From the NCBI GenBank assembly GCA_003695675.1, contig RFIA01000175.1, positions 1 through 61,106 on the forward strand: a stretch of DNA of 61,106 nt, given 5' to 3'. Position 1 is the first letter of the stretch, and each line of letters starts with the position of its first letter. The stretch comes from Chloroflexota bacterium (GTDB lineage Bacteria; Chloroflexota; Anaerolineae; Aggregatilineales; Phototrophicaceae). Positions 14,432 through 48,685 of the stretch are shown piece after piece. The notes under the pieces were generated by a model. The model had not been told where the DNA came from. It made no database searches and worked only from the letters and a program-made list of their open reading frames with translations. The position numbers and the translations under genes are program-made.

Positions 14432-14618
14432 AAAACTCACTCATTTTTCAATGCAGGTTCTTAATATTTGACAGCTCGTTAGCTGTTCAGGATGTCAACT
14501 TATCAGGAAAATTGTCCGTCGTCGGCGTTTCGCGTATTTTCAATATTGCTCAATGCGCAATCAACGTTCTTAATACTACTTTACGCGCTTCTAGCGCTTT
14601 CAAGTATAGAGATTGTGT

Positions 14619-18211: not shown

Positions 18212-20743
18212 TTGTCATCGAATCCAAATATCCCCGAAAAAGAAATTCGTAAACGTTGTGCGACATTATTAGCCGGTGCTGCTGCCGAAGCACAACGCTT
18301 ATTTCAAAATTATGTCGGCACCGAGCATTTGTTCATTGCGATGACACAAAACGAAAATGGACCGACGAGTATTTTATTGAGACGCGCTGGGTTTAAGCCG
18401 CGTGATGTGCGCAATGCGATTCGGCGTGAAATCGGCACCGGAGACGACCAACTTGAAGAGGTCTTGCCACTGACGCCGCGCAGCGAGATCGTTCTTGCGT
18501 TGGCGATTTTTCTCGCCGACCAAGACGATATTGATAAAGATGAAGAAATCGAAGAAATTCATTTGTTGTTGGCCATGCTGCAAGAGGGCGAAGGTGTCCC
18601 GATTCGCAAATTGATCGATATGGGGTTCGACCTCAATCGTTGGTTGCAACGTCTGTTGGAAGAGGCACACGAGAAAAACTTCTCAAGTTTGTTGAAAGAT
18701 GATGTGTCCGACAGCGATTTATTCGATGATTTCGACTTTGACGACGAAAGCCTGCAATTCGACAGCGATGAATTGTTTGGATTGTCGTCATCGGCGGAAA
18801 AACGGGCCGAGTCGCAGCGTGTTCCCACGCCATTGTTGGACAAATATGGCCGCGACCTAACGGCGCAGGCCAACGAAGGTCGGATCAAACCGGCGATTGG
18901 CCGTGACCGCGAAATTCGTCAGTTGGCACGAACACTCGCCCGCAGCACGAAGAACAATGCTGTATTGCTCGGCGATGCGGGGGTCGGCAAGACGGCTGTT
19001 GTTGAAGGACTGGCTTATGCGATCTATGAAGGGACGGCGCCGGTTTCGTTGCGCGACAAACGGATTGTGCAAATCGAAATTGGGGCGCTCGTCGCTGGGA
19101 CGAGTTTGCGCGGTCAATTTGAGGAACGATTAATCGGCATTGTTGACGAAACCAAACAAGCCGAAAATGTCATTTTGTTCATCGATGAGATTCACACGAT
19201 TGTCGGGGCGGGCGACACGATTGACAGCAATCTTGACGCGGCCAATATTTTGAAACCGGCGTTGGCGCGGGGCGACATCATGTGCATCGGCGCGACGACC
19301 CACGAAGAGTATCGCCGTGCTATCGCGCAAGACCCGGCGCTCGACCGCCGCTTCCGCACGATTGATATTGAAGAACCATCCTTTGATGCGGCGTTACAAA
19401 TCCTTGAGGGGCAAAGCCCGCGTTTTGAAGCGCATCATGGTGTTAATATCAAGCAGGAAGCGTTGGAGGCTGCTATTCGGCTATCGATCCGTTATTTGCC
19501 GGATCGTCGCTTGCCGGACAAAGCGCTCGATTTGTTGGACGAGGCTTGCGCCCGGATGATTATTCGGACACACGCGCCCGACGATGATGACCCGAATTAC
19601 GTCCCCGACGTTGGCGTGGACACAATCGCCGATGTGCTTTCGGAGTGGACGGGGATACCCGTCAGCGATTTGACCAAAGGCGAGAAACGCCGTTTAGCAG
19701 AATTGGACGATGCGCTGCTCAGACGTGTCGCCGGGCAAGACCATGCCATCAAATTGGTGGCCGATGCGATTCGCATGGCGCGTGCTGGACTCAGCGACCC
19801 GAACCGCCCAATTGGTGTCTTTCTCTTTTTGGGGCCATCGGGTGTTGGCAAAACTGAATTGGCGCGAGCGATGGCTGAATTTTTATTCGGCAGCGATGAA
19901 GCGCTCTTGCGTCTTGACATGTCCGAATTTCACGACTCGCACACCGTTGCCCGCTTGATCGGCGCGCCCCCGGGTTATCGGGACACCCAACGCGGCGGTC
20001 AACTCACCGATGCGTTGCGCCGACGCCCTTACAGCGTCGTGTTGCTCGACGAGGTGGAAAAAGCCGCCCCCGAAGTGTTCGACATCTTCTTGCAGGTTTT
20101 CGATGAAGGTCGCATCAGCGATGCGCATGGACGCAAAGTCGATGCCCGTCACGCGATTTTCATCATGACGAGCAACATCGGGACAGAGGAAACCAGCAAG
20201 CAATTGGGCTTTTCTGGTGGGGACGCGGCCATACGCCAACGCGATTACTCGGATTATCTCGGTCGCTTCTTCAGACCCGAATTCTTAAATCGCTTGGACG
20301 AGGTGATTACATTTAATGCGTTGGACAAAGAAGCGCTCTTGAGAATTCTCGACATTCAACTGACTGAATTGCGTGAGCGCTTGCGCGAGCAACATCTCAA
20401 ACTCAAGTTGGCCGACGATGCTCGTGATCTCATTTTGGACGCGGGTTACGATCCCAATTTGGGGGCGAGGCCGTTGCGCCGCGCCATCGAACGGCTCGTC
20501 ACACGACCGCTCAGCAATCAGATTATGCACGACACATTTCCGCCCGGCAGCACAATCATCGCCTATGATAATGGTGATGAAACCTTGCGTTTTGAAAGTG
20601 CGCCCTCCTCACAAGATGACGAAAAAGAAGGCCAGCACGATTTAGCAATCGAAGCGGTAAATGGGGATATGCCTGATGAGAAATCAATCGGTGAACCGGT
20701 GATTGACAAATCCGAAAATGAATCGAGCAAAGATGACGAATGA
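18212..20743 (+). CDS. Clp-family AAA+ unfoldase (ClpC/ClpA-like)
   Basis: 843 residues: Clp N-domain repeats (about 1-150), an acidic linker (DDVSDSDLFDDFDFDDE), AAA1 with GDAGVGKT near 254, AAA2 with GPSGVGKTE near 540, and a D2-small domain. Both Walker B motifs are intact (LFIDEIHT, VVLLDEVEK). The coiled-coil middle domain of ClpB/ClpC is nearly absent: only about 20 residues separate LLDEAC from the next AAA element. An LGF tripeptide near 665 (KQLGFSGG) sits where ClpP-docking loops occur, so it probably feeds ClpP. The acidic C-terminal tail is unusual. TTG start with GAGGGA upstream. It overlaps the kinase gene by ATGA. Confidence 0.9.
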   Translation: MSSNPNIPEKEIRKRCATLLAGAAAEAQRLFQNYVGTEHLFIAMTQNENGPTSILLRRAGFKPRDVRNAIRREIGTGDDQLEEVLPLTPRSEIVLALAIFLADQDDIDKDEEIEEIHLLLAMLQEGEGVPIRKLIDMGFDLNRWLQRLLEEAHEKNFSSLLKDDVSDSDLFDDFDFDDESLQFDSDELFGLSSSAEKRAESQRVPTPLLDKYGRDLTAQANEGRIKPAIGRDREIRQLARTLARSTKNNAVLLGDAGVGKTAVVEGLAYAIYEGTAPVSLRDKRIVQIEIGALVAGTSLRGQFEERLIGIVDETKQAENVILFIDEIHTIVGAGDTIDSNLDAANILKPALARGDIMCIGATTHEEYRRAIAQDPALDRRFRTIDIEEPSFDAALQILEGQSPRFEAHHGVNIKQEALEAAIRLSIRYLPDRRLPDKALDLLDEACARMIIRTHAPDDDDPNYVPDVGVDTIADVLSEWTGIPVSDLTKGEKRRLAELDDALLRRVAGQDHAIKLVADAIRMARAGLSDPNRPIGVFLFLGPSGVGKTELARAMAEFLFGSDEALLRLDMSEFHDSHTVARLIGAPPGYRDTQRGGQLTDALRRRPYSVVLLDEVEKAAPEVFDIFLQVFDEGRISDAHGRKVDARHAIFIMTSNIGTEETSKQLGFSGGDAAIRQRDYSDYLGRFFRPEFLNRLDEVITFNALDKEALLRILDIQLTELRERLREQHLKLKLADDARDLILDAGYDPNLGARPLRRAIERLVTRPLSNQIMHDTFPPGSTIIAYDNGDETLRFESAPSSQDDEKEGQHDLAIEAVNGDMPDEKSIGEPVIDKSENESSKDDE

Positions 20744-23700
20744 TGAATGCGCCACAAACTGGACAGCAGCCTGTCAAGCTGTCCGATGAAAAGATCAAGT
20801 CCATCTTGGCGGACGAACATCCCGATGACAATCGAGATTATTTCGCGCTCGACGCGGTTGAAGAGATTCGCACGTTAGGCAAGTTGGCGCTGCGCCGTGA
20901 CGACATCAATGATTACTTTGCACTCGGCGATTTATGTGCAGCGCGAACATTGAATGATAACAACCGTTTGCGCGTTCTGTATGCGGGCAAGACGTTGATT
21001 GCCTATCGCCGTGCGCTCGAAATGGCCGAAGCACACGACCGTAAGCATGACTTAGAACGCGCGGTTGCGGCAATACGCAATTACGTCAACTGGGTATTAC
21101 AAGTCGCGCAGCAACATCCAACACGCCGGAATATCGCAGTCGCGTTGTGGGTACTGTCGGACGACAGCGTCGACGACAGTTTCGACAACATCGGTATTAT
21201 TGAGCCATTATTGACAGAATACGGCCAGCAAATTGGCGCGACACGCATGGATTTGGATATGACGCGGACAGCTGTTGAACTCGGCAAGTCGCAATTGTCG
21301 TTAGACGATGTGACACCAATACCGTCCGACACGCTCGATACAATGACCGATTTTCAATTTGATGAATCCGCTTATGCCCTTGATTCTGATGAGACAGAAT
21401 TTCGTGCCAGCGAAGCACGAACAGATGAACGGGCTGCCAGCTCGCTGAAGCATTTTAAGCGACAAAATGGCGATGTCTTGGGGGCATCGCCTCGGCATGA
21501 ATTACGCCCGGCGATTAGTGAGGGCGAGTTTGAACTCGGCACACTGATTGGTGGGCGTTATGAAGTCTCCGAGATTCGGCGCGGTGGTATGGGGGTCGTT
21601 TATTTGTGTTATGACCACGACGAAGGGTTACCCGTCGCGATTAAGAGCTTCCAAAGGCGTTTTTTGAATAATGAGCGGGCGATGATGCGTTTTCGTTATG
21701 AAGCGTGGACGTGGATTCAATTGGACAAACATCGTCACATCGTCCAAGCGAAATTGGTAGACAATTTCGACAACCAACCGCATTTGATTCTCGAACAAGT
21801 GCGTGGGCCAGAAGGTCTCGGCCCTGATTTGCGCAGTTGGATCGACCGCAAATGGTTGGACACGCAACAAACGATTCGTTATGCGTTACACATCGCATTG
21901 GGGATGCAACACGCCACGACGAAATTCCCCGGTTTGGTACACCGTGACCTCAAACCGGCCAATATTCTCGTCACTCACGACAACATCGCCAAAGTGACAG
22001 ATTTTGGCTTGGTGCGGTCGTTGAATTTCGAGGACATCCCCCCGGCGAGTATTCAATTGCTCGACAATGATTTGCATGCTTTGCAACGTTTGACACGCGA
22101 CGATGCGGTAATCGGCACGGCGCCATATATGTCGCCGGAACAATGCCTGTCGCAAGATGTGGACGAACGGGCGGACATCTATGCGTTCGGTTGTTTGGTA
22201 TACGAAATGCTGACCGGGAAGTATTTATTCGATGTACGCAAATTTGAGGAATGGCGCGACGCACACGTCAAACAAGTCCCGACTTTTGATGATGATATTG
22301 TCGACCAACTGCCGTCACAATTGTGTGACTTCATCCTCAATTGTCTTGAGAAAGACCCCAATGACCGACCGGATACGTGGACGGCAATTGTCGATGAGTT
22401 GATTAACATTTACGAGCAAGAAATCGGCGAACTTGACCCGGATGAACTCGTCGGCGAAGAGCTTGAAGCTCGCGAATTGATGGATAAAGGGTACTCGTTG
22501 ACGGAGCTTGGCCGCCCAGAAGAAGCGCTTCAGGCTTATGATCGCGCCATTGAGCTTCAGCCCGATTATGCGTGGGCATGGGCCCGCAAAGGACGCACCC
22601 TGCGCTTGCAAGAGCGTTACCAAGAGGCGATAGATTGTTATGATCGTGCGCTCGAACTTGAGCCGCGTTATGCGTGGGCATGGAATGGCAAAGGCATCGC
22701 GCTTGAACGCATTGGCCGCTTAGAAGAGGCGCTGCACTGTTATCAACAAGCAGCACTCTTTAATCCCAAAGATGTGCTCTATTTGTGTAATCAGGCCGAT
22801 GTTCTCGATGGGCTTGAACGAACCGATGAGGCGGTTCGTTTGTTGGAGCGTGCCATACAAATTGATCCACAATTGCCGAATAGCTGGGCACGTTTGGGGC
22901 AAATTCAACGCAATAGTGGCAACTTCGCGGCCTCAATCGCGTCGTACAAGCGTGCTATCGAATTGGATCCGAGTTATGCTTGGGCTTATAATGGGTATGG
23001 CTTGGCACTAAAAGCTGTCGGGCGATTGAAAGAGGCGTTGTTGGCATTCAAGAATGCGGTACGCTATCAACCTGATACGGTGTGGCATTGGTACAATTGT
23101 GCCGAAATCTTGATCGAAATGGAACAGTATGAAGAAGCGCTGTTATATGCACAAGAAGCCACTCGCACGGATAAGAATCATCCCGAGAGTTGGGCCAAAT
23201 TTGGGCAGGTGCTGCGCTATGTCCATCGTTATGATGAAGCATTGGACGCCTACAATCGGGCCTTAGAACTCAAGCCGGATTATGCGTGGGCGATTAATGG
23301 CAAAGGTATCGTGCTAGAGCGCATGGGGCGTTATGAAGAAGCGCTCGCTTGTTACCAAAGCGCCAGCGCGGAGTCCGACGATGACATTTGGCATTGGTAC
23401 AATCAGGGCAATGTGCTGGCGATGTTGAAGCGTTATGAAGAGGCGTTGCCGTTTTTAGAACGTGCGATTGCATTGCGGCCAGACCATGCACGAAGTTGGG
23501 CGCGGCTTGGCAATACCTTGCGTTTGCTTGAGCGTTATGATGAAGCACTCAAGGCGTATGAAGAGGCTACGACGATTGATCCCAATTATACATGGGCGTG
23601 GAGCGAACGTGGTGCGCTGTTGGAACAGATGGGGCGATACGACGAGGCGCTTTCGGCCTATCGTCGGGCCGCAATGACCGACCCTGCCGATCCAATTCAT

Positions 23701-24780
23701 CTTGTGCGCCAAGCCGATATTTTTGTGCATCGCGATCAATATGTCGAGGCTCTGCGCTTGGTTGACCAAGCGCTGCGTATGGACAAAAGCAATTCGCGAA
23801 CATGGGCCAAACACGGGCAAATTTTGCGGCGGCTTGGTCGCTTTGAAGACTCGTTGACAAGTTATAATCATGCTGTTGAACTCGATCAAACGTATGCTTG
23901 GGCGTGGAACGGGCGCGGCTTGACGTTGAGTGCGTTGGGGCGTCATGAAGAGGCGTTAGTTGACTTCCGCAAAGCTGCTGAGTATGAAAGTGACGACGTT
24001 TGGTATTGGTATAATCAAGGTGATGAACTCATCATTCTCGGACGGCTAGAAGAGGCGTTGGAAATTCTTGATAAAGCGCTCGAAATTGATGAAACGCATG
24101 TCGAAAGTTGGGCGAAGCGTGGGCAGGCATTGCGCCGCCTCAAGCAATATGAATTGGCGTTAGAGGCTTATGACAAAGCTCTCAGTCTCAATCCTGAATT
24201 TGGATGGGCATGGAACGGACGCGGTTTGGCGCTGGAAGGTTTGAAGCGTCTTGAACAGGCGCTGGCCAGTTATGAGCGGGCGATTGAACTCGAACCGAAT
24301 GTGATCTGGTATTACACCAATAAGGTCGATGTGCTGTTGGAAATGCAGCGCAAAGAAGCTGCGCTTGAAACGGTCGATGATGTGCTCAAAATGACCTCCG
24401 AACATCCGGTGATCTGGGCGCGTCGTGGTCAATTGTTGCGGCGCATGGCACAATTTGAAGCGGCGATTGAGAGTTATGACAAAGCGCTAGCACTCGACCC
24501 CTGTTATGCGTGGGCTTTGAATGGGAAAGGATTGGCGCTGGCTGCGCTTGGTCGTTGGCAAGAGGCGTGTGACTGTTACGCATTCGCCGTCAAATACAAT
24601 GACCAAGATGTCTGGTTTTGGCACAATTACGGCGAAGCATTGCTCAAGCTGCGGCGTTGTCAAGAAGCCTTAGAAGCCTTTTCGCGAGCGTTGGAAATTT
24701 ATTCTGAGCACGAACCGTCACAACAAGGCTTGGATGAGGCGCAAAATTGCCTACGGCAGGAAGAAACCGAAGATGAATAA
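20740..24780 (+). CDS. Ser/Thr protein kinase with 22 tetratricopeptide repeats
   Basis: 1346 residues. Residues 1-260 are helical and unassigned. The kinase domain is at about 274-553: the glycine loop IRRGGMGVVY has Arg in place of the first Gly, with VAIK at 299-302, HRDLKPANIL at 401, DFGL at 421 and MSPEQ at 464. It should be active. From about 577 to 1325 lie 22 TPRs of 34 residues. After the first, they fall into seven super-repeats of three TPRs. There is no transmembrane segment, so it is cytoplasmic. ATGA overlap with the Clp gene and an 8-bp overlap with the FHA gene make an operon. It plausibly phosphorylates threonines read by the FHA protein. Confidence 0.95.
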   Translation: MMNAPQTGQQPVKLSDEKIKSILADEHPDDNRDYFALDAVEEIRTLGKLALRRDDINDYFALGDLCAARTLNDNNRLRVLYAGKTLIAYRRALEMAEAHDRKHDLERAVAAIRNYVNWVLQVAQQHPTRRNIAVALWVLSDDSVDDSFDNIGIIEPLLTEYGQQIGATRMDLDMTRTAVELGKSQLSLDDVTPIPSDTLDTMTDFQFDESAYALDSDETEFRASEARTDERAASSLKHFKRQNGDVLGASPRHELRPAISEGEFELGTLIGGRYEVSEIRRGGMGVVYLCYDHDEGLPVAIKSFQRRFLNNERAMMRFRYEAWTWIQLDKHRHIVQAKLVDNFDNQPHLILEQVRGPEGLGPDLRSWIDRKWLDTQQTIRYALHIALGMQHATTKFPGLVHRDLKPANILVTHDNIAKVTDFGLVRSLNFEDIPPASIQLLDNDLHALQRLTRDDAVIGTAPYMSPEQCLSQDVDERADIYAFGCLVYEMLTGKYLFDVRKFEEWRDAHVKQVPTFDDDIVDQLPSQLCDFILNCLEKDPNDRPDTWTAIVDELINIYEQEIGELDPDELVGEELEARELMDKGYSLTELGRPEEALQAYDRAIELQPDYAWAWARKGRTLRLQERYQEAIDCYDRALELEPRYAWAWNGKGIALERIGRLEEALHCYQQAALFNPKDVLYLCNQADVLDGLERTDEAVRLLERAIQIDPQLPNSWARLGQIQRNSGNFAASIASYKRAIELDPSYAWAYNGYGLALKAVGRLKEALLAFKNAVRYQPDTVWHWYNCAEILIEMEQYEEALLYAQEATRTDKNHPESWAKFGQVLRYVHRYDEALDAYNRALELKPDYAWAINGKGIVLERMGRYEEALACYQSASAESDDDIWHWYNQGNVLAMLKRYEEALPFLERAIALRPDHARSWARLGNTLRLLERYDEALKAYEEATTIDPNYTWAWSERGALLEQMGRYDEALSAYRRAAMTDPADPIHLVRQADIFVHRDQYVEALRLVDQALRMDKSNSRTWAKHGQILRRLGRFEDSLTSYNHAVELDQTYAWAWNGRGLTLSALGRHEEALVDFRKAAEYESDDVWYWYNQGDELIILGRLEEALEILDKALEIDETHVESWAKRGQALRRLKQYELALEAYDKALSLNPEFGWAWNGRGLALEGLKRLEQALASYERAIELEPNVIWYYTNKVDVLLEMQRKEAALETVDDVLKMTSEHPVIWARRGQLLRRMAQFEAAIESYDKALALDPCYAWALNGKGLALAALGRWQEACDCYAFAVKYNDQDVWFWHNYGEALLKLRRCQEALEAFSRALEIYSEHEPSQQGLDEAQNCLRQEETEDE

Positions 24781-37249: not shown

Positions 37250-38665
37250 TTATGATTTGTTAATGTTGGTTCGCAAGCGGCGCGAGACCACAATCACACC
37301 GACGAGTCCCAGCCCAAGCAACAGAATCGACATGACGCTTGACGAGTCGGCGCCGACATCATCGAAGATACCCGTGTTCGGCAGCGTTGCTGGTGTTGGC
37401 GTTGCGAACCCGCCTCCTTGACCAGGGAACAGCAGTTCAAACAACGCGGTTGATGTTGCTTGAACGCCCTGCGCGCTCAACCCCTCTGGGAACTGTTCAA
37501 AAATTTCGACATAGGCTGTGGCCGTTTGCGCGACGGCTTCCGGGTCAACGGGACCTTGAGCGACCGCAGTACCTTGCGCGATAGGCGCGTCTTCTTGATT
37601 GTTGTCCTCAAATTCATCGGCGTTAAATGAAATCGATTGGAACGAAGGCGCACTGCTTTGCTGATTTTGATTTGCCAGTGCTGTAGCTGTCAGAGATGAA
37701 CGCTCCACCTCTTGATAGAGAGCGGTCGCTGTTTCTTGAACTTCTAAGAAATTCTCCGGAGGATTACCGGAAAAGGCGGTCGCAGTGGCAAGATTCTGAA
37801 ATTCTAGGTTTTGATATAGTGCCGTTGCCGTTCCTTGGACATGCTCACGAGCAATTTGCACACCGCCAAATTGGTCGACAATATCTCTAAAGCGTGTCGC
37901 CGTGGCGATAATCTGTTGGCGGCTCAATTGGCCGCTTGTATCGGTACTGCCGCCGCTATCCCCTCCCAGAATTTGCGCCAGCGCGGTTGCCGTTTGCGCG
38001 ACTGCTTGTGGGCCAAGATTGCTGACCACCTCCGGCGCTTCGGGTGTTGGTGTGACTTCTTTGGTCGGTTGTGCTAGTGCAGTTAGTGCAAGAGAGGTCG
38101 GGTCAATCGTTGGCGAAGGAGATGGCGTGAAGGTCGGCGTGCGTGTCGGCGGGACTGTGGCGGTCGGCGGTGCCATTGCGGTTTCTGTCATGGAACGCTC
38201 AAGAGTCTGCGCTTGGACAGCTGTCTGCGAAGCCTGTGCAAAGGTCGTCGCATTAGCATCAGCAATAGCCGTGCGCGTCATATCAAGCTCCGCGTCGCCA
38301 TCATCGCTGAGGGCGAGAACAACAACCGCAGCGATGCCGATGATGAAGACGAAAATCAATAAGGCAGCGAGAATAACAAAGGTGCGATTGCCGGCTCCCT
38401 CGTCACCTTCATCATCAATGACTAAATCCGGCAGGTCACCTTCTTCGAAGTCGCCCAAACCGGCGTCATCAAAATCACTTAAATCGCCGAAGTCATCATC
38501 GTCAAAGAGGAATGTATCACCGGCGTCGTCACCAAAATCGTCGCCGAGATCGCCACCAAGATCGCCGAGATCGTCGTCGAGATCGCCAAAATCGTCGCCG
38601 AAGTCACCGAAATCGTCATCGAAATCGTCATCATCGAATGTGAAATCATCGAAATCATCGGCCAT
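37250..38665 (-). CDS. Asp-rich membrane protein with LPNTG cell-wall-type tail
   Basis: 471 residues, no family recognised. Residues 1-80 are extraordinarily acidic (about 36 Asp), in DDFGD-like units. A transmembrane helix spans 94-119. The outer part (120-427) is Thr/Ala/Gln-rich, with recurrent QTATALAQ and GTATALYQ helices and Thr/Pro runs. The end reads LPNTG (428-432), a helix (444-460) and SRRLR, resembling a sortase sorting signal, although the 11-residue gap before the helix is longer than usual. It has an internal membrane helix and no signal peptide, so both ends may be membrane-held. It is the last gene of the cassette. SD GGAGAG precedes the ATG. Confidence 0.82.
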   Translation of the reverse strand: MADDFDDFTFDDDDFDDDFGDFGDDFGDLDDDLGDLGGDLGDDFGDDAGDTFLFDDDDFGDLSDFDDAGLGDFEEGDLPDLVIDDEGDEGAGNRTFVILAALLIFVFIIGIAAVVVLALSDDGDAELDMTRTAIADANATTFAQASQTAVQAQTLERSMTETAMAPPTATVPPTRTPTFTPSPSPTIDPTSLALTALAQPTKEVTPTPEAPEVVSNLGPQAVAQTATALAQILGGDSGGSTDTSGQLSRQQIIATATRFRDIVDQFGGVQIAREHVQGTATALYQNLEFQNLATATAFSGNPPENFLEVQETATALYQEVERSSLTATALANQNQQSSAPSFQSISFNADEFEDNNQEDAPIAQGTAVAQGPVDPEAVAQTATAYVEIFEQFPEGLSAQGVQATSTALFELLFPGQGGGFATPTPATLPNTGIFDDVGADSSSVMSILLLGLGLVGVIVVSRRLRTNINKS

Positions 38666-38709
38666 AAGTTCTCTCCTTCGCTGCGCGGCAGTGAATGTGC
38701 CTCAATTAA

Positions 38710-39783
38710 TTATTGACCAAAAACCTCAAGATTCGCAAATGGTACAAGAACCGTTTCTCCCGAGATCAGTTCGACCCGCGCACATGGGACTCGTAATCCA
38801 TTGTCTAACATACATGGGGTTTTTGGCAAGTCAACAACGTGACCGAGTTGACCGGCATAAGGATGCCGCGTCAAACGGACTTCCATTTCCGGCTCTAGTC
38901 CTCGATGCAATTGTGGGCGTGGTGGCCGGTCATGTGTGTATGACCGATTAATAATCAGTTCCGGTCGGTCGGTTTCCATCCGGTCGGGCAGAACAGCATC
39001 AAGCGTCGCTTGTTCGCCATCATTATCTCGCAAGAGATTATATACGGCAATATTCATACGCATATCCCCAAAACCTTCTGTGAGCATAATCGTCCCACGA
39101 GACTCAATCGCCTGTTGGCGCAAAGCGGGGGACATACTCGGCGCGATGACACCGGCAAAGGCTTGCGTCGCCATCACATCGAGGGCGATAGACGTGAGCG
39201 GGTCTCGTGTGACAATCATCGTACCACGAAAGCGCATTTCGAGTTCATCACTGACTAAGGATGCCAGCCCGCCTCGCGGCTCCATCCGCAACAGGCCAAT
39301 CATACGACGACCATTGCCCCACACGCCTTGAACAAGCGTGCCCGATGCTTCGATAATGACACCACGCCCGGCCAACTCTTCCAAAACTTGCCCGTTCAAA
39401 CCGGCTTCAAGTTCGTTGACTTCGGGCGTCTCTTGCAAAATAATACGACCTTGATCGATTTGCGCCACGATTCCGGTGACGGGGGAGACGAGTCGTCGCC
39501 CTTTCGTGGCCGACTTCCCGGCGATAGGTTGCCGAATATCGACCACATCATTTTGTTCGACGAACAGCAAATCTTCCAACTCATCTGGATTTTTGAGACG
39601 GAAGTATTTTTGTGCATCGAGAATGATGTAACGTGTCGGCACGGTGCCACGAGCAACAACTGTGCCCACATCGACACGTTCATTGGCTTTCACCGTGACG
39701 GTGCCGATAGCGTTGTCCGGCAATAATCGTTCACGACGGATTGTCGTCTCCGCTATGACATGTCGTTGTTCAGGAAAGTTCAT
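38710..39783 (-). CDS. Conserved protein with sandwich-hybrid-like and KOW-like segments
   Basis: 357 residues from the second ATG; an ATG four codons upstream (39795) is equally possible. Function unknown. RLVSPVTGIVAQIDQGRIIL resembles the turn of a barrel-sandwich hybrid domain, and the C-terminal PYAGQLGHVVDLPKTPC followed by VLVPFANLEVFG looks like a small KOW/SH3-type barrel. No membrane helix or signal is seen. The gene overlaps the 3' end of the ASKHA ATPase gene by 14 bp, so the two products are probably made together and may interact. Its cassette position suggests a cytoplasmic partner of the ATPase. Confidence 0.72.
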   Translation of the reverse strand: MNFPEQRHVIAETTIRRERLLPDNAIGTVTVKANERVDVGTVVARGTVPTRYIILDAQKYFRLKNPDELEDLLFVEQNDVVDIRQPIAGKSATKGRRLVSPVTGIVAQIDQGRIILQETPEVNELEAGLNGQVLEELAGRGVIIEASGTLVQGVWGNGRRMIGLLRMEPRGGLASLVSDELEMRFRGTMIVTRDPLTSIALDVMATQAFAGVIAPSMSPALRQQAIESRGTIMLTEGFGDMRMNIAVYNLLRDNDGEQATLDAVLPDRMETDRPELIINRSYTHDRPPRPQLHRGLEPEMEVRLTRHPYAGQLGHVVDLPKTPCMLDNGLRVPCARVELISGETVLVPFANLEVFGQ

Positions 39784-41749
39784 CGCGCAAAGCATTCAAC
39801 TCATCGAACGGATTATCATCTTCAGCAAAAATATCGTCATCGTCAAAGTCAAACGCGCCGAAGTCTGATTCGGGTTGTGGTTCTTCCTCGCCGAGTTGTT
39901 TCAAACGACGACGTGGTTGCCCACCGGCGACTTCAAGTTGTTCGAGAATGTCGGGGGCAGAAATGACTGTAACTTCTTCATCGACAGGAGTCAGCAATTC
40001 TTCAGGAATCGGACGCATCTCATCGCCAGTGATTTGTGAAATCCACAACGGCAGCAATTCGGCGCGGCGAGCAATGTCGTTCGGTAACACCAATGGACGC
40101 CCGCGGGCGTCAAATATCAAGCCAACCGTGCCGCCTTCCATGCGTTGTTTGACACGCCCTTTGTCGCCAATTGTCAGGCCGCGCCCCGATCGCACTTCGA
40201 CCTCGGCGCTTTGACCGATACCGAGTGGATATACCCAGATTGAACCGCCGGGCACATCGTGTTTGATTTCTTCACCATCGTCGAGTTTGATTTTGACGCG
40301 CAACGCGGTGCGGCCACGTTTTGGTCGCCCCGAAGCGCTGATACACGTCCCCATTTGCTCTAAGTTTGCGCCATCAAGGATTTGCACAACGGCTTCGGGA
40401 TATAAACGCACGACGGCACCCAGCGCCGGTATCAAACCGTAGGGGTCAACAAATAAAGCAGAAACACCGACGGGTTGCAACCCATCGAGCAAAACGAGCG
40501 CGTCGTAGCCATCGCGCCCGGACTGAGTCAACGCGGCACCCGCACCAATGACCATCCCGAAGGAGGGGGTCTTCTCTGCGTTTTTTCCCGGCCAACGTGG
40601 ACGCGACAAGGCGATCATCTTTTCGACACCGGCGCGGACAAAACCATATTCAAGATACAAGTCCTGCACGCTCTGTGGTATCGAAGCCGGGCGCAACATT
40701 TTGTTGAGCGCATAACTTTCGAGATCATCTTGGGTGATATAAAACGGCAACCACCGCCGCACCGCTTCGGTGCCGACAATTTCTAACAGGCTATGGGCGC
40801 TATGCCCGCTGCCGATGTCGGTGCGAATCGTCGTTGAGGTTTCGCCCTGAATCGAGACGGACATCGTCGTCACTGCGCTGCCAACATCAATCGCGACGAC
40901 ATTTTCTTTCGGGCGTGTTTGCCCCAAATATTCGACAATGAGATCATAACTTTGGCCGGTCGGCAAAATCCCGAGTCGGCTCTGCTTGACCACACTGTCT
41001 AATCCTCGACCGAACAAGGCACCCTGTTTGTTGAAAGCCAGCGCGAGTTGTAGTTGCGCTTTTTCGAGTTGTTCATTTTCAAGTGTCGGGCGTACATTCG
41101 GCGCGATGAATAGATTGACCCCATCAAGATTGCCGAACAGCAGGCGCATTTGCCGGACGAGGGCGCTGTTCCCGGCGTAAATCACACTCGGTTTTTGCCG
41201 ACGCGAAATGAGTGACAACGCCATCCGCACAACTCGCGCCATGTCGAGCAGGGGGTCTTCAGCGCCGCCTTCCGTCCCCCCGACGATGAAAATCAAATCC
41301 GGTCGGCTGATGAGAATCGCATTCAGCAATTCCTCGTCGCTCAAATCATCTTCAAGGCTGATGGTGCGCACTACCTCGACATACGTGCCATCGGTTGCAC
41401 GCAGGCCACTCTCAATGCTCACATCGGGCACAAGGCCGATGAGCACGGTTCGCATCGCCCGCCCGACACTCGCCGTCATCACAATCTGATCGACACCCGA
41501 GCGGTCTATCTGTTCCGGCTTGATGATGTCGCCATGCTCGTTCATCAAGCGTCGTCCGGTCAACTCGCTGAGTTCGGCGACAGCGCGTTTCAAACCGATA
41601 GTGATGTCTTTGTACGGTTCTTCGAGTGTTGTCCGTGCCATGCTGCGGGCGACCAACCGATAATTACCGTCTACGAGGTCGAGTAGCACGACCCGAGTAT
41701 AGACATTGCCGAAATCGATCCCCAGAATTGAGCCAAAACGAGTTGCCAT
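39770..41749 (-). CDS. GlmL/MutL-like ASKHA-superfamily ATPase
   Basis: 659 residues. Phosphate-1 motif GIDFGNVYT (D12), phosphate-2 motif AIDVGSAVTT (D288) and adenosine motif GAGAALT (403-409): an actin/Hsp70-fold nucleotide-binding protein. Overall it matches the glutamate-mutase L family, which is thought to service B12 mutases. No mutase or B12 gene is nearby and the cassette is otherwise membrane/envelope, so another role is likely. A C-terminal beta-rich part (475-560) and an acidic tail (GAFDFDDDDIFAEDDNPF) resembling the N-terminus of the LPNTG protein suggest a shared binding site. It overlaps the next gene by 14 bp. Confidence 0.85.
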   Translation of the reverse strand: MATRFGSILGIDFGNVYTRVVLLDLVDGNYRLVARSMARTTLEEPYKDITIGLKRAVAELSELTGRRLMNEHGDIIKPEQIDRSGVDQIVMTASVGRAMRTVLIGLVPDVSIESGLRATDGTYVEVVRTISLEDDLSDEELLNAILISRPDLIFIVGGTEGGAEDPLLDMARVVRMALSLISRRQKPSVIYAGNSALVRQMRLLFGNLDGVNLFIAPNVRPTLENEQLEKAQLQLALAFNKQGALFGRGLDSVVKQSRLGILPTGQSYDLIVEYLGQTRPKENVVAIDVGSAVTTMSVSIQGETSTTIRTDIGSGHSAHSLLEIVGTEAVRRWLPFYITQDDLESYALNKMLRPASIPQSVQDLYLEYGFVRAGVEKMIALSRPRWPGKNAEKTPSFGMVIGAGAALTQSGRDGYDALVLLDGLQPVGVSALFVDPYGLIPALGAVVRLYPEAVVQILDGANLEQMGTCISASGRPKRGRTALRVKIKLDDGEEIKHDVPGGSIWVYPLGIGQSAEVEVRSGRGLTIGDKGRVKQRMEGGTVGLIFDARGRPLVLPNDIARRAELLPLWISQITGDEMRPIPEELLTPVDEEVTVISAPDILEQLEVAGGQPRRRLKQLGEEEPQPESDFGAFDFDDDDIFAEDDNPFDELNALRDELS

Positions 41750-41756
41750 AGTCGTA

Positions 41757-42401
41757 TCAGCTTCCGTTTATCCGCATGAAAATAAATCCAAGTCGCTCGC
41801 TGACAATCGTCAGGCTCGTCAAGATTGCAGCGGCGTACAATGCACCGAGCGTCACCACGATCACGCCCTGACCAATGGTGCCGATGACCAGCGACACCGG
41901 CCCGCGACGAATTTGTCCATCGGCGCGGCGCTTCGCGAGAAATTGAAAATAAACGAGCGAGCTAATCACCCCCGCGACGACGAGATAACTGTTGACCGTG
42001 TTCGCATTCACCCCTTCGGCGGTTGTGTCTGCCAATGGGATGATGACGCCCGCAACTGCCCCCACCAACGCGACCGCCGTCCCAACGCCGATGATGAAGG
42101 CAATCGAGATATTGCCGACCGGGCCGAGACGTGGTGATGTCTTCAACAGCAACAGGACGCCCAATGCAAATGGTATCAGGCCGAGAATAACGTTGCTCGT
42201 CGGGGCATTATCGGCGACAATCGTCGCATCTATCCACGGCAGGATGACACTTTCAACCGTCACCACAGCGATGAATCCTGCCGTCAGCCCGACAAAAACA
42301 TAGACCGCCAGCCGGTATAAAAAATTATCACCCAAAATGTAACTGAATACCATCAAGGTTAGGACAAAGCCCGCCCATAGCCCGACTTGCTCCGCACTCA
42401 C
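41757..42401 (-). CDS. Integral membrane protein of unknown function
   Basis: 214 residues with about six hydrophobic helices (starting near 8, 32, 70, 92, 125, 165) and few charged loops. No family recognised. Start is GTG at 42401, overlapping the end of the 1508-residue gene (GTGA), with AGGAG 7 bases upstream; the ASKHA ATPase follows 7 bp later. It is therefore translationally coupled into the cassette. It could be the membrane base of the complex (inference). Confidence 0.75.
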   Translation of the reverse strand: MSAEQVGLWAGFVLTLMVFSYILGDNFLYRLAVYVFVGLTAGFIAVVTVESVILPWIDATIVADNAPTSNVILGLIPFALGVLLLLKTSPRLGPVGNISIAFIIGVGTAVALVGAVAGVIIPLADTTAEGVNANTVNSYLVVAGVISSLVYFQFLAKRRADGQIRRGPVSLVIGTIGQGVIVVTLGALYAAAILTSLTIVSERLGFIFMRINGS

Positions 42402-45400
42402 GAGCGACTCCTTCTCGAAATGCTACGAATAATATTCACTAATGCTCCCAGTCCGATAATCACAGTGGCTGCGATGATGCCGAGTGTCATGGCATTCCAA
42501 CGTTCATTGCTGAACGAGGATAACGACGGCTCAATCTCCGGCGTCGGGGTCAACGTCGGCCCCGATGGAGTCTCGGTGGGGGTCGGTGTTGCTGACGCTG
42601 ACACTGTTGCCGTCGGCGAGTCTTTGACTTCCGCTTGTGTCGGCGTCGGCGAGTCTTCAGCTTCTGCTTGTGTCGGCGTCGGTGAGTCCTGCGCTTCGAC
42701 GGCTTGCGTCGCTGTCGCTGTTGCTTTTGCAGCACCGCCACCCGCCTGCGCAGTGGCCGTTTGTGCGAGATTGGCAATCGCCGTATTCGTGACCGCAACG
42801 GCAGTCAATGTGCCGAGCGCCGGGTCAACTTCATCTTTCGTCGGCGGCGGTGGCGTTGGTGTAGCGCTCGGTTTTTGAGCGCCGCTATCGACTCCACCGG
42901 CGGTCGCCGTGAGGGCGTCACCAATAGCTGCATTCGTCGCAGCAATTTGTGTCAATGTCTCTTCAACCGGCACATCGGTCGGTTGAAGTTTAACATCATG
43001 ACCCGGCAACACACGCCCAAAGCGTATCGTCAGGTTGCTACTGCTTTGCGGGTCGATGACCGGCAAGTCGCCATCGGCATCGACATTCACCAAGCTGGCC
43101 GACACCCAACCTTCAATATCATTCGGCGTGATGACATTCAGCCACGTGCCCGCCGCATTTTGACCGAGTATCTGAAGTTCAGTGCCCGGCGGCGCGAGGT
43201 CAACAACTGGGAATTGTGTGCTCGGCCCATTGCGAATGTTGACCGTTTGATTCGAGCTAATCACGCCCGTCGCCACCACACCCGAACGGGCTTCGGCTTC
43301 GGCGGTAGCCGTCTGCGCGAGATCGGCAATCGCTGTATTCGTCACGGCGACGGCGGTCAATGTCGGCGCGAATGGGTCATCAGTCGGTTGCGCCGGTTGT
43401 GGTGTATTCGTCGCTGTCGGCATCGGCGTATTCGTTGGGCGTGGTGTATTGGTCGGCTGCGGTGTATTCGTCGCCACATTTTGTGCGTCGGCAGTTGCGG
43501 TCAACGCTTCGCCAACCGCTTCGTTTGTGACGGCGATGACCGTCAATGTCATCTCAGCTACCGACGTATCTGTAACAACAGGTGGGCTACTAGGCGCTGC
43601 GCCCTGAATATCGAGCGCGGTCGTGATCATCCAACCTTCAACACCCTTCGGTGTGACGACATTAACCCACGCCCCATCATCGCTCTCACCAAGAACCGTG
43701 ACTTGTGTGCCTGCCGAAACAATATCGACAACCGGCGAATTTGTCGTCGGGTTTTGCCGCACATTGACATCCTGTGTACCTGTGACAACGCCCGTGATGA
43801 CCGGAATCGGCGATGGCGTCGCTGTCGGCGGCACCGGTGTCCTCGTCGGCGTGGCTTCGGTCGGTGTCGGCGTCATTGTCGGTGTTGCTGTCTCTTCATC
43901 GACAGCTTGTTGGTTTGCCGGCTCTTGAGTCGGTGGGACTCGAGTCGGGCGCGGTGTGAGTTGTGTACTCGGATCAGCAATGAGCGCATCAAGCATCAGG
44001 CTGTAAGTATACGCATCGCGAAAGCCGACCAGCATCCCTTGAATGCGATGTTCGCCTTCGGCCATGAACGGCTCAGTCAACGGTGCGGCGGCGGCGCTTG
44101 TGGCGGCCAAAACGGTTGTATTCGTCAACGGCACAATCTGCTCAGCCCATGCACGCACATCTTCGCCGCGCTCGGCAATAACAATAATCAGGCTGAAGTC
44201 GTCGAGCGAATCAACATCGAGCGGTAGTGCATCGCCGCGAATGTCGGTTTCCAAACTTGTGCGCACATCTTCACCAAAAGCGCGTAGACCGATGGCGCTA
44301 GCGGCCAGATAACGCGACACAAAGTAATCGGCGTTTTGTATCAACGGTCGCTCATCGAGCACCATCTCGTTGAAGGTTTCATCGTCGCCAATTTCGTGGA
44401 CGACATTGTTGACGTGCAGCAAACCGACCGGATTCGTGCTGACATAAAGTGGACGCGCACCACGTAGGAAAATATGCTGCGAGAGCACCCGCGTCAAGTC
44501 GTCGAGTTCACCGGCGCCCGTCGGGCCATATTCCGCCGCGACCAACACAAGATCATCGCTATTGAGGGCGTCGATGCGCTCAAAGACATCGGCTTGACGG
44601 CTGTCGGCTTCAAAAGCTGCCGGTGGCAAATCCCCCACATCAATATCATCGAAGATAAATGGCAGCACGACAACAATAGCTAAAATGAGACCAATCGCGA
44701 CACGCTCCCAACGCACCCCAGTGAAAATACCGCGCCGTCGTTTTAGCGCGGCGGTCTCCGCCTCAGCCTCAAGCTCGTCGAAAACCTCATCGAGCGAAAA
44801 AGCCTCATCATCGTCAAGATACACATAAGTATCATCAATCGCCGCCGGTTGTGAATCCTCAGCACCCCCGCCAAGTTTCTTCAACAAATCGGCTTTTTGT
44901 TGTTGCTCCGGCGTAAGAATAATCGGCGAGTCAATCTCAACCCGACTTGTGCGAACCCCTTCGAGTAAAATGGCATCATCAATACCGGCGAAGGGGTCGT
45001 CCGGAACTTCAATCAGTTCGCTTGTGTCCAGCGGTTGGGTGACGTCGGCGCTGCGCTCACGCAAACGTTGTAGGCGGTCGTCCAATTCGGTGACATCGCG
45101 GTCTTGTTGCTGCCGCAAAATCGCCGTTGCCGAAACTTCATCGACACTGACGCCAAGTTCGGTCAGTATATCGAGGGCGGGGCGTTCATCAACACCTTCC
45201 GGCATTTCAAAAGAGGTATCTTCGGGTTCGATGTCGCCAAAAGCTGGGTCATCGAACAAATCGTCAAAATCAATATCGTCGCCCGTTGTCGCCAACATCC
45301 CCGACTGCGGTAGCGCTACATCTTCGCCCATCGATTCAATCAATGTGTCGAGGTCGGCTTGTTCACCCGCCTGTGCTGTGAAGAAATCGTCTTCGAGAAT

Positions 45401-46924
45401 TTCATCTTCTTCAGTAGCAGCATCATAATCGCTGCTGTCGATGTTTTCCAACCAATCCATGGATTCGGTTTCGGCAACAGGAATATCTGTTTCCGCAAAC
45501 CAGTCGAAGTCATCGTCCACGTCGTCCGCTTCGGTGAAGAATTCCCCCATCGTGATTTCTTCTTCAACGGGGGCAGCTGCTTCCTCGAAAAAGGTTTCCG
45601 CCGAGGGTTGCTCAAACGCTTCATCGACTGGTAGTTCGCCCGGCATCTCTTGCTCGTCGCTCAGGCCGAGTGAACTGAGGAACTCATCTGTATCGCCACC
45701 GCTAACGGGTGAAGGTTGTTCTGCTTCCGCCGACGGCTCGCCAAAATCATCGAGTCCCAACTCACCCAGCAATTCGCCGGTATTAATATCGCTCGCGCCA
45801 GGAATCGCTTCGGTGAACGCGGTGGACGTGTCGGCGGGCGCAGCATCTTCGTCAGTCAAACCGAGTTGGTCGAGAAAATCGCTGGTGTGTTGAATCGGCG
45901 GCCCAGTATATTCTTCAGCAGTTTCACCTGTGCCTTCAAGACCGAGATTGCTCAGAAAATCGTCGGTGTCCACATGCTCAAAGGATTCATCGACTTCATC
46001 AACCGCCTCAAGCCCAAGATCGCTCAAAAATTCATCGGTGTCAACACGCGCTACGCCTTCGTCTTCAGGTGGCGTATCTGCCTCGCCAAAACCCAGAACG
46101 CTCAAAAATTCGCCGGTGTCCATAGGCGACACATCTTCGGCTTCGGCATTCGCCGGGGCAGCATCCGCCAGATTATCGAAGAAATCTTGCAAATCAGGTT
46201 CAGGAGATTCGTCGCCAATATCGGAGAAAAAGTCCCCTCCCCCTGTGCCACCAAAATCGAATGTAGGCAATTCGACATCCTCAGGCGGCGTGGGAGGCGG
46301 TGCGGGTTCATCAACACCCGCGAGTATATCACCGAGCGAACCGGTTGTATCGCCGGATACCCCGACTTGCTCTAGCCATTCCGGGGCTTCGTCATCGTCA
46401 GAGTCTTCCAATCCTAGATACCAGTCGGGTAACACGCCGCTATCCGGCAAATCATCGGCTGCGGCTGCGCCGATGTCATCGAACAAATCATCGGGAATGA
46501 GTTCTTCGGGGTCGCGCTCACGGGTGACTTCTTCCTGAATTGCCGCCCATTCATCATACGTCAGGTCGGATGAGACACTCTCCGGCAGGGCGTCGGCCTG
46601 AGAAAGAAAATCTTCAGACAATCCCCCCGTTTCATCGACGACAGGTTGTTCCTCATCTGGTACAGACGCCCCTTGCAACCACGGCGGCAAATCGGATGCG
46701 TCGTCGCCTGCGTCGGATGCCACATCATCGCGCATCCACTCCGGCAAATCATCATCGCTGGGCACACCCCCCGCTGCGCTATCGTCATCACCTTGTAGCC
46801 ATGGTAATTCGCCGGTGAATCCAAATCCTTCGGGACGTTGTGGCTGGGCGCTACTGTCGTCCGTTTGTTCGTCGGAATCGTCTTCGTTATCTAACCAATC
46901 CGGCATATCGAAATCGTCACTCAT
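42398..46924 (-). CDS. Giant acidic/SH3-type membrane tether protein
   Basis: 1508 residues, no named family. Residues 1-720 are acidic and probably disordered, with two repeated short motifs: LPxW(L) at 7, 40, 60, 79, 165 and 180, and DTxEFLxxLGL at 269, 295, 319, 346, 381 and 411. A helix at 742-760 crosses the membrane. A folded extracytoplasmic domain (about 770-985) is unassigned. Two bacterial SH3 domains (about 1045-1106, 1219-1281) alternate with Thr/Pro linkers and four TLTAVAVTNTAIA-type helices. A second transmembrane helix (1480-1499) and basic tail RRSRS end it. The N-terminal motif arrays look like multivalent docking sites. Its GTGA overlap couples the next gene. Confidence 0.85.
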   Translation of the reverse strand: MSDDFDMPDWLDNEDDSDEQTDDSSAQPQRPEGFGFTGELPWLQGDDDSAAGGVPSDDDLPEWMRDDVASDAGDDASDLPPWLQGASVPDEEQPVVDETGGLSEDFLSQADALPESVSSDLTYDEWAAIQEEVTRERDPEELIPDDLFDDIGAAAADDLPDSGVLPDWYLGLEDSDDDEAPEWLEQVGVSGDTTGSLGDILAGVDEPAPPPTPPEDVELPTFDFGGTGGGDFFSDIGDESPEPDLQDFFDNLADAAPANAEAEDVSPMDTGEFLSVLGFGEADTPPEDEGVARVDTDEFLSDLGLEAVDEVDESFEHVDTDDFLSNLGLEGTGETAEEYTGPPIQHTSDFLDQLGLTDEDAAPADTSTAFTEAIPGASDINTGELLGELGLDDFGEPSAEAEQPSPVSGGDTDEFLSSLGLSDEQEMPGELPVDEAFEQPSAETFFEEAAAPVEEEITMGEFFTEADDVDDDFDWFAETDIPVAETESMDWLENIDSSDYDAATEEDEILEDDFFTAQAGEQADLDTLIESMGEDVALPQSGMLATTGDDIDFDDLFDDPAFGDIEPEDTSFEMPEGVDERPALDILTELGVSVDEVSATAILRQQQDRDVTELDDRLQRLRERSADVTQPLDTSELIEVPDDPFAGIDDAILLEGVRTSRVEIDSPIILTPEQQQKADLLKKLGGGAEDSQPAAIDDTYVYLDDDEAFSLDEVFDELEAEAETAALKRRRGIFTGVRWERVAIGLILAIVVVLPFIFDDIDVGDLPPAAFEADSRQADVFERIDALNSDDLVLVAAEYGPTGAGELDDLTRVLSQHIFLRGARPLYVSTNPVGLLHVNNVVHEIGDDETFNEMVLDERPLIQNADYFVSRYLAASAIGLRAFGEDVRTSLETDIRGDALPLDVDSLDDFSLIIVIAERGEDVRAWAEQIVPLTNTTVLAATSAAAAPLTEPFMAEGEHRIQGMLVGFRDAYTYSLMLDALIADPSTQLTPRPTRVPPTQEPANQQAVDEETATPTMTPTPTEATPTRTPVPPTATPSPIPVITGVVTGTQDVNVRQNPTTNSPVVDIVSAGTQVTVLGESDDGAWVNVVTPKGVEGWMITTALDIQGAAPSSPPVVTDTSVAEMTLTVIAVTNEAVGEALTATADAQNVATNTPQPTNTPRPTNTPMPTATNTPQPAQPTDDPFAPTLTAVAVTNTAIADLAQTATAEAEARSGVVATGVISSNQTVNIRNGPSTQFPVVDLAPPGTELQILGQNAAGTWLNVITPNDIEGWVSASLVNVDADGDLPVIDPQSSSNLTIRFGRVLPGHDVKLQPTDVPVEETLTQIAATNAAIGDALTATAGGVDSGAQKPSATPTPPPPTKDEVDPALGTLTAVAVTNTAIANLAQTATAQAGGGAAKATATATQAVEAQDSPTPTQAEAEDSPTPTQAEVKDSPTATVSASATPTPTETPSGPTLTPTPEIEPSLSSFSNERWNAMTLGIIAATVIIGLGALVNIIRSISRRSRS

Positions 46925-46930
46925 GTCACT

Positions 46931-47572
46931 TTATTCCCGGTATGAACGGTCTTGACCAATGAGGACACGCGCCCCAGTCACGACCGTACCCAAGGCAATA
47001 CCCAGTAAAATTCCTCGTGAACCGGCACTCACCGGCACTTCCAGCAGCCAATCGCGCACATCAAGCAGTCGACTCAGCCCCGACACCGGCAAGGCGCCAA
47101 TCAACACAATCATGAGTACCGCCGTGAACAAAATACCCCACCACGTCACTCGGCGGCGCATCAAGCGTGCCGCGCCATAAACCAACGCGAAAAATACCAA
47201 ACCGCCCAACGCCGACTCAATCGAAACCTGCACACTTTCGAGCAGAATCGCGCTCGGTGCCCGTTCGCCAACATCCGGCTCAATCACATCAGTGCGTTCG
47301 AGAATCGTCAGCACGATGACGAGGCCAGCGCTGATGAGCATCACGAGACTATATACCCAGCCACCTTGCGTCTTGAAGATGCGCCCCAGATGCACCGTCA
47401 ACAAATTCAAAAGACCGATAAGTACCGTAATCGCAATCGTGACGACGACGAGTTGCAGCAGCAAGTCCGAAATCACGGAAACATCATCGCTGACCAGCAA
47501 ACCTGCCAGCGTGATAACGCCGAAGCCAATCGCCACGGCAGAGGTTAATGCAGCCCCCGGACGGATTCTCAC
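46931..47572 (-). CDS. Integral membrane protein of unknown function
   Basis: 213 residues with about five or six transmembrane helices and basic inter-helix loops (GRIFKTQGG, RLMRRRVTW). No family recognised. GTG start at 47572, with GGGGGC 6 bases upstream. The upstream DUF6754-like gene stops 3 bp before it, and the 1508-residue gene starts 6 bp after it. Similar in size and hydrophobicity to the 214-residue membrane protein at 41757, but no convincing alignment was seen by eye. Confidence 0.75.
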   Translation of the reverse strand: MRIRPGAALTSAVAIGFGVITLAGLLVSDDVSVISDLLLQLVVVTIAITVLIGLLNLLTVHLGRIFKTQGGWVYSLVMLISAGLVIVLTILERTDVIEPDVGERAPSAILLESVQVSIESALGGLVFFALVYGAARLMRRRVTWWGILFTAVLMIVLIGALPVSGLSRLLDVRDWLLEVPVSAGSRGILLGIALGTVVTGARVLIGQDRSYRE

Positions 47573-47575
47573 AAA

Positions 47576-48373
47576 TTAGCCCCCCAGAAAAACATCGAGT
47601 ATATCGCCAACTTCTTCGTCCGCGACATTCAAAATGACCAGTATAATGATCGTGATAATCAACAACCAACGCAACACATCTTGTGTGACAGCCGCCGCCA
47701 GCAACGCGCGTCTGTCGTTGAAGTAGGCCCCGGCGACAAAAATTTCTTCGCCAATGAGGGGTTCGTCGGACATCGCCAGCGCGACAGCTTGCCCGTCTAA
47801 TTGGTCACTCGTCACAATAAGTGATTGATTGCGGCGGCCTGCCTGCGAACCAATCAACGCGACCTCTGCGCCAAAACTGCCTGAAAGGACATTGGCCTGC
47901 ACATCGTCGTCAGCCATCATACCCGTCAGCGCGGCAGCCAATACCAATGAACGCGGCCCGGACGGATACCAGCGCACGCTGCTTGCGCGGTAACGGTCGA
48001 GCATATCACGAGATTGATAGGCTTTGCGCAATGTATCTTGTGCAAGGGGGATAGCAGCCGCATCGCTCATCGTGATAATCGGCGGATTGGGACTAATCGC
48101 TGCTCGCTCAATGACATTGAACATCAATTCAGCACTTGCCAGCGCCAGAAGCGTGTTTTCATTGCCGATGCCCGCGCTGCCAAAGGACAGATGTACCGGT
48201 CGATTGGCTTCAATCGCTGCGCCAATCATACCCGGTATGACGGCGTAAGCAGGAATATTGCGCAGTGCATAAGGCGTCTTTTTGCGCCGTGTGAACTGCG
48301 TTATGAGTGTTGTCAAGACGACGCCGATTAAAATAATGAGAATCGTGAAGACTTGGGTCGTTGAATCCACCAT
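47576..48373 (-). CDS. DUF6754-like membrane protein
   Basis: 265 residues. One N-terminal transmembrane helix (8-25) and one near the C-terminus (about 237-254) flank a soluble domain with HLSFGSAGIGNENTLLALAS, SDAAAIPLAQDTLR and GSFGAEVALIGSQAGRRNQS. It resembles the DUF6754 family, known from Chloroflexi and relatives; this is recalled, not searched. Function unknown. AAGGGGGA abuts the ATG. It is the second gene of the cassette, and its soluble domain probably faces the side opposite the small N-terminal tip. Confidence 0.75.
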   Translation of the reverse strand: MVDSTTQVFTILIILIGVVLTTLITQFTRRKKTPYALRNIPAYAVIPGMIGAAIEANRPVHLSFGSAGIGNENTLLALASAELMFNVIERAAISPNPPIITMSDAAAIPLAQDTLRKAYQSRDMLDRYRASSVRWYPSGPRSLVLAAALTGMMADDDVQANVLSGSFGAEVALIGSQAGRRNQSLIVTSDQLDGQAVALAMSDEPLIGEEIFVAGAYFNDRRALLAAAVTQDVLRWLLIITIIILVILNVADEEVGDILDVFLGG

Positions 48374-48409
48374 TCCCCCTTATCTACAAGTGTGCCAGTC
48401 GATGATGTC

Positions 48410-48685
48410 TTATGCGTCATCTTCCGGCAAAGTTTCGTTTTCTAGTTGTGCCCGTAACCATGCGATACCGTCCGGTGTTTCAAGGATACGAGCCAATTCA
48501 TCCACAGTATCTCGCCGGATGAATACCCCCAATGCCGGTTGTGCAACCCACAAGAATTGCGCCCCCAGCGGCCCTAATGGTTCAAGAGCATCCAACACGG
48601 TGCCGAACGTATCCCCCCAACCACGCGCCTTGATGACTGCAAGCCACGCATATTCTGTGTGATGTGAATTATGCTTCCATGTCAT
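48410..48685 (-). CDS. Small conserved-looking cytoplasmic protein, first gene of cassette
   Basis: 91 residues, no recognised family: TWKHNSHHTEYAWLAVIKAR, then a helix and an acidic end (ENETLPEDDA). Codon usage and spacing (37 bp to the next gene, same strand) fit a real gene at the head of the cassette. A TATACT lies about 8 bp before the ATG, so the transcript may be nearly leaderless. Less certain than its neighbours. Confidence 0.6.
   Translation of the reverse strand: MTWKHNSHHTEYAWLAVIKARGWGDTFGTVLDALEPLGPLGAQFLWVAQPALGVFIRRDTVDELARILETPDGIAWLRAQLENETLPEDDA

Follow-up and report, generated by a model that had tools for sequence, protein, structure and literature searches.

In a 61,106-nucleotide stretch of DNA from a Chloroflexota bacterium (contig RFIA01000175.1, hereafter the window), we analyzed an eight-gene cassette that encodes a MutL-family ASKHA ATPase together with several membrane proteins. 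The cassette consists of eight open reading frames (ORFs) on the minus strand, running from 48685 to 37250, and its genes are named A to H in the order of transcription (Table 1, coordinates of the whole window). Neighboring genes are separated by gaps of 36 (A-B), 3 (B-C), 6 (C-D), 7 (E-F), and 44 bp (G-H) or overlap by 4 (D/E) and 26 bp (F/G); all eight lie where the initial annotation, made from the sequence, had placed them. We combined Pfam and NCBIfam family scans with hydropathy to find transmembrane (TM) segments, lysine and arginine (K+R) charge bias to predict topology, and AlphaFold2 to model folds. Hydropathy indicates 2, 6, 2, 6, and 2 TM segments in B, C, D, E, and H, respectively, in line with the expectation of at least four integral membrane proteins. 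Promoter and terminator scans gave nothing informative, and no RNA families or tRNAs were found in the window.

Table 1. Features of the cassette and their positions in the window
Feature	Position	Strand	Evidence
A, small soluble protein, 91 residues, first gene of the unit	48410-48685	(-)	ORF
B, DUF6754 protein, 265 residues, TM - Rossmann-like alpha/beta domain - TM	47576-48373	(-)	PF20539, AlphaFold2
C, six-TM membrane protein, 213 residues	46931-47572	(-)	hydropathy
D, two-TM protein, 1508 residues, predicted cytoplasmic motif repeats and extracytoplasmic domain	42398-46924	(-)	Pfam, hydropathy, charge bias
D, predicted cytoplasmic low-complexity acidic region, 4 PxW[LM] and 4 [DE]FLxxLGL	44705-46924	(-)	motif count
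D core, end of TM1 and conserved, predicted extracytoplasmic domain, residues 748-982	43979-44683	(-)	iterated profile
SH3_3 pair between D core and TM2, outer limits approximate	43055-43783	(-)	PF08239
E, six-TM membrane protein, 214 residues	41757-42401	(-)	hydropathy
F, MutL-family ASKHA protein with C-terminal extension (GLIFDARGRP...), 659 residues	39770-41749	(-)	PF13941
G, three-domain soluble protein, 361 residues	38710-39795	(-)	AlphaFold2
H, 471 residues, Asp-rich N-terminus, TM, Thr/Ala/Pro-rich segment, LPNTG, TM, RRLR	37250-38665	(-)	

The cassette is conserved as a unit, and its arrangement is therefore not due to chance. Our genome searches were centered on Chloroflexota. Relatives were collected with an alignment of B in a single scan of a genome collection, from which 80 of 407 candidates were kept. 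All 80 carry the label Chloroflexota or a Chloroflexota group; the set, being skewed toward close relatives of the first query row, is an uneven sample. Of the 80, 56 have untruncated loci with sufficient flanking sequence, and in 55 of them the genes follow the order ABCDEFGH on one strand. A second sample, drawn from the phylum and comprising 40 loci, holds the arrangements ABCDEFGH (12 loci), ABCDEF (9), ABCDEFG (4), BCDEFG (1), and BCDEFGH (1), with F and G alone in 11 loci and F alone in 2; the order B-C-D-E-F is kept in all 27 of its loci that hold B. Most FG-type loci have, upstream and in D's place, a PxWL-repeat protein that in many cases has a zinc ribbon and no TM segment. Gene A matches no Pfam or NCBIfam family and represents a small family conserved at the same place in relatives.

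We also surveyed 201 sampled Chloroflexota genomes (G-numbers, the window's own genome being G000; L-numbers denote loci). MutL-family matches over the cut-off occur in 83 of these genomes and DUF6754, the family of B, in 44; 43 of the 44 also have a MutL match, G105 being the exception. The two genes share a contig in 35 genomes, where they are never more than 7.3 kb apart (35/35), and are split over different contigs in 8, all of them fragmented assemblies. Families that we call Chloroflexia-like, a label inferred from family grouping among other things, retain the A-F unit and encode G elsewhere; the nine genomes in which G is missing from an ABCDEF-type operon all have it at another site (9/9). 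The tree of F broadly groups by family, which is consistent with long vertical inheritance. The initial annotation had proposed that the eight genes form one envelope machine around a GlmL/MutL-like ATPase. Its expectation of co-conservation is borne out, and the predicted membrane topology agrees with it as well; the identity of the ATPase has to be narrowed, and nothing in the analysis points specifically to the surface anchoring or motility that the annotation had suggested.

F is a recognizable and probably repurposed MutL-family protein. It matches PF13941 with 196.5 bits (cut-off 27) over 447 of 450 positions and reaches 102.4 bits on the GlmL equivalog model NF040745, below that model's cut-off of 475; two true GlmL proteins of the phylum score 567-600 bits. 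Judged by its sequence, F thus belongs to the MutL family of ASKHA proteins and is not GlmL, and of the double label first given to it only the MutL part stands. F retains most of the nucleotide-binding motifs typical of ASKHA proteins. It shares with GlmL (NF040745, TIGR01319, PF13941) the Pfam family and the phosphate-1 and adenosine motifs, and differs from it in several respects. At phosphate-2, all GlmL rows shown read DxGGATTD, whereas cassette F proteins keep DxG without the Asp of that motif, the window's F reading DVGSAVTT. Cassette F proteins also have an extra C-terminal region with IDARGRP that is missing from the GlmL rows. Finally, F is encoded in a membrane operon and GlmL in a mutase operon: neighbors were scanned at four GlmL loci, of which three (L151-L153) have methylaspartate mutase S/E adjoining GlmL and the fourth (L154) shows no mutase at the threshold used among the two neighbors scanned.

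In the tree of F, true GlmL genes cluster with a fusion to a B12-binding domain (L069) and apart from the cassette proteins; two long-branched rows (L065 and L066) fall near the GlmL group with weak support. The fusion, at L069:4233-8027, is a MutL-family protein of 1264 residues whose N-terminal part matches a B12-binding domain. A single MutL-family gene is present in the window's genome. Within the phylum, GlmL exists as a distinct gene, and G176 has both the GlmL and the cassette type.

The membership of F in PF13941 raises the question of whether it still helps a B12-dependent mutase, for instance methylmalonyl-CoA mutase, as its reactivase or chaperone, with the membrane proteins being incidental or placing the enzyme at the membrane. 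As the initial annotation had observed, no mutase or B12 gene turned up when the other genes of the window were scanned with Pfam or NCBIfam, a scan that covered all but a few smaller ORFs, and the cassette lacks a mutase neighbor in the window and in most relatives; proximity of the ATPase to a mutase is not the rule. One Anaerolineales clade differs. Among 89 loci with enough DNA upstream of A, the cassette there is divergent from the B12 subunit of methylmalonyl-CoA mutase in 22, and MeaB lies near the cassette in 27. The former loci, mostly with MeaB adjoining, are L042, L044, L101-L109, L114, L118, L120, L121, L123, L124, L126, L128-L130, and L137. These neighbors are on the opposite strand, divergent from A, and were seen in no other clade, including the Chloroflexia-like and FG-type loci; GlgC occupies the position divergent from A in other Anaerolineales. 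The mutase family PF01642 is found in 43 of the 44 DUF6754 genomes, yet it is also present in 154 of the 201 genomes overall. G072, which is 99% complete, has the cassette without a PF01642 match, and the best mutase match in the window's genome is on another contig (C204). Because mutase neighbors are limited to one clade, mutases are common overall, and G072 lacks one, we regard a B12 helper role as improbable; the altered phosphate-2 motif, the extra C-terminal region, and the existence of a separate GlmL also speak against it.

B is a clear member of DUF6754 (PF20539, 87.8 bits against a cut-off of 27), in agreement with its first description, and a search of the open literature gave no paper on this family. 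Its AlphaFold2 model (pLDDT 86.9) has a TM segment, a Rossmann-like domain, and a second TM segment. Across 100 homologues, the K+R value is 4.03 after TM1 and 0.31 before it, and the domain is predicted to be cytoplasmic. No Foldseek match to the model has an E value below 0.001, and its structural matches are a wide mix of Rossmann-like folds, the best being Sir2 (Z 10.9). C matches no Pfam or NCBIfam family, and E shows no detectable relation to C; both are conserved in place. Two candidate duplications, C with E and B with the D core, were set aside at hhalign probabilities of 1.4% and 0.3%, respectively. Sequence-profile searches of the PDB with B, F, and the D core returned nothing significant.

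Two six-TM proteins beside a cytoplasmic Rossmann-like domain and an extracytoplasmic domain could also form a transporter or channel, in which C and E would be the permease, B a cytoplasmic gate, D an outer substrate-binding part, and F an energizing or gating ATPase. Ligand-binding RCK/TrkA regulatory domains (Z 8-9) are among the matches to the B model, but these matches are generic, C and E match no transporter family, and the repeats, the KOW domain, and the wall-type domains of the cassette would be unusual in a transporter. We consider this arrangement unlikely, though a minor possibility.

The AlphaFold2 model of G (pLDDT 87) contains a barrel-sandwich hybrid, a swivelling domain (residues 152-284), and a KOW/SH3 domain (residues 298-361). 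The sandwich-hybrid character attributed to G from its sequence is thereby recovered, both in this predicted fold and in a sub-threshold Pfam match to the RnfC/NqrA barrel-sandwich. The barrel-sandwich resembles NqrA (4u9o; Z 8.3, root-mean-square deviation (rmsd) 2.5 over 63 residues), the swivelling domain resembles phosphotransferase system (PTS) enzyme I (2wqd; Z 11.0, rmsd 2.3 over 106 residues), and the last domain resembles NusG/Spt5 KOW domains (Z 8-9). As regards the swivelling domain (PTS enzyme I, RraA) and the KOW domain (NusG/Spt5), the likeness is one of fold only. A PDB profile hit to a lysozyme entry (5i8l, E 0.0005) was set aside because its 22 residues are too short, and the search otherwise gave only KOW-like hints. 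On the basis of the model, G is likely an adaptor, and one that is found even where it has gone from the operon.

The weak RnfC_N/NQRA_N matches in G and the two six-TM proteins of about 210 residues bring to mind an Rnf/NQR-like redox pump. What G shares with the N-terminal barrel-sandwich of NqrA/RnfC, however, is the fold of a single domain, to which it adds the swivelling and KOW domains, and its membrane partners lack redox cysteines: B, C, E, and the D core have no conserved cysteine (best column 1-4%; 1% in C and 4% in E). None of these proteins matches an Rnf/Nqr membrane-subunit family. We rejected such a pump for its lack of conserved cysteines and consider it highly improbable.

In Chloroflexia-like genomes, G genes unlinked to the cassette (L161-L168) mostly adjoin genes for a receiver-type protein and for a soluble hybrid of receiver and histidine kinase, and several times these stand directly ahead of ATP synthase genes. 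G may therefore also feed signalling, and the cassette as a whole could be a system that senses the surface or envelope and acts on two-component signalling via G. The unlinked G mostly precedes the response-regulator/histidine-kinase hybrid and the receiver-type protein, each family being present in 6 of 8 loci, but no kinase or regulator is found among the conserved neighbors of the cassette itself, and a sensing role of this kind seems rather unlikely to us.

D is the largest protein of the cassette and its candidate bridge across the membrane. Its N-terminal 740 residues contain 4 PxW[LM] motifs against 0.07 expected, a number reached in none of 2000 shuffles, and the same region has four [DE]FLxxLGL repeats. 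The density of PxWL is 11.7 per 1000 residues in D proteins versus 0.18 in unlabelled neighboring genes. The number per relative D reaches 63, with none in L040 and L066 and one in L055, L058, L059, and L063. An iterated profile recovered the D core from 27 proteins in the initial set of 41 loci, the window among them, and later from 94 proteins; it is single-copy in the window's genome. Charge bias places both termini of D inside and the core domain outside. The two SH3-type domains noted earlier in this 1508-residue protein correspond to two stretches of SH3_3 (PF08239, 92 bits); relatives have only about 240 residues between their TM segments, and the SH3 pair is by comparison an insertion. 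The pair would lie on the outer side of D, where wall-binding domains would be useful, and both the charge bias and the insertion accord with the surface-facing role given to D in the initial annotation. Many relatives have CxxC pairs resembling zinc ribbons at the N-terminus of D, or of the PxWL protein that takes its place, or close to that end (L033, L052, L054, L055, L060, and L061); the window's D has none. A tblastn search of plasmids gave no match to the single D core and the single B used as queries. D-core-like and C-like proteins may co-occur in other phyla as well, which we regard as a lead and not as evidence.

H was described as an Asp-rich, LPNTG-tailed protein, and both features are present, LPNTG standing ahead of the last TM segment. 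An LPxTG motif followed by a TM segment and a basic tail (RRLR), in a genome with sortase matches, makes H a putative sortase substrate by sequence. Strict LPxTG occurs in 38 of 63 H homologues. In the window's genome there are two matches to sortases and eight to transpeptidases. Among the 201 genomes, a transpeptidase match is missing from 22 and an MraY-type transferase match also from 22, and the 20 genomes listed in each of these sets are identical. DUF6754 occurs in none of those listed genomes, and their sole MutL match over the cut-off is a true GlmL (G178).

Taken together, we give an even chance to the reading that the products of the eight genes make up a single envelope complex, characteristic of Chloroflexota. 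Its membrane core would comprise B, C, D, and E, B being turned toward the cytoplasm and D toward the exterior. F and G would dock together beneath this core, perhaps via the repeated PxWL motifs of D, which would offer a multivalent contact, and the nucleotide cycle of F would gate or drive assembly of the complex, while the outer domain of D and H would work at the wall or surface of the cell. The output might be wall or envelope assembly, sensing, or transport. In type IV pili, the ASKHA protein PilM holds on to a short linear motif in PilN. The cassette resembles this pair in joining an ASKHA protein to a membrane protein with a cytoplasmic linear motif, a works-like analogy only: F belongs to the MutL family, and D has two TM segments, many motifs, and a different outer domain. 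None of the eight proteins matches the PilN, PilO, or PilP families at E<=0.1. No described system with the cassette's parts was found in the open literature, to which the search was confined, subscription papers lying outside it. More tentatively, and at somewhat less than even odds, we propose a previously undescribed envelope machine of Chloroflexota whose MutL-family ATPase, no longer tied to B12 enzymes, uses an adaptor to hold a multivalent PxWL scaffold and powers or gates a B-C-D-E membrane core that acts on the wall or surface.

Several observations weigh against the proposed complex. The PxWL motif is absent or single in some D proteins and would therefore not be the sole contact. 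Several distant loci keep only F, G, and a soluble PxWL protein, and the membrane core is therefore dispensable for F and G there. The charge bias of H's TM1 is neutral. The adjacency to methylmalonyl-CoA mutase genes in one clade may reflect a persisting B12 role. The genomes lacking wall genes look like small-genome relatives, so that their lack of the cassette may reflect a single loss. Lastly, we infer the contacts among the cassette proteins.

Outside the cassette, the window encodes two protein-kinase proteins (12569-14440 and 20740-24780), the second with a long tetratricopeptide repeat (TPR) array. A ClpB-like AAA gene (18212-20743) precedes this TPR-array kinase. An Indoleamine 2,3-dioxygenase-family gene is found at 11392-12543 (PF01231, 262 bits).

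Chloroflexota envelopes are poorly understood. The rigid gene order of the cassette across several families, together with its absence from genomes that lack wall genes, points to an important shared process, and from the strict synteny, partners and targets for knock-outs can be read off directly. The label GlmL on such Chloroflexota proteins can mislead, and with F the MutL/GlmL family would widen from helpers of B12 enzymes to an ATPase of a membrane complex.

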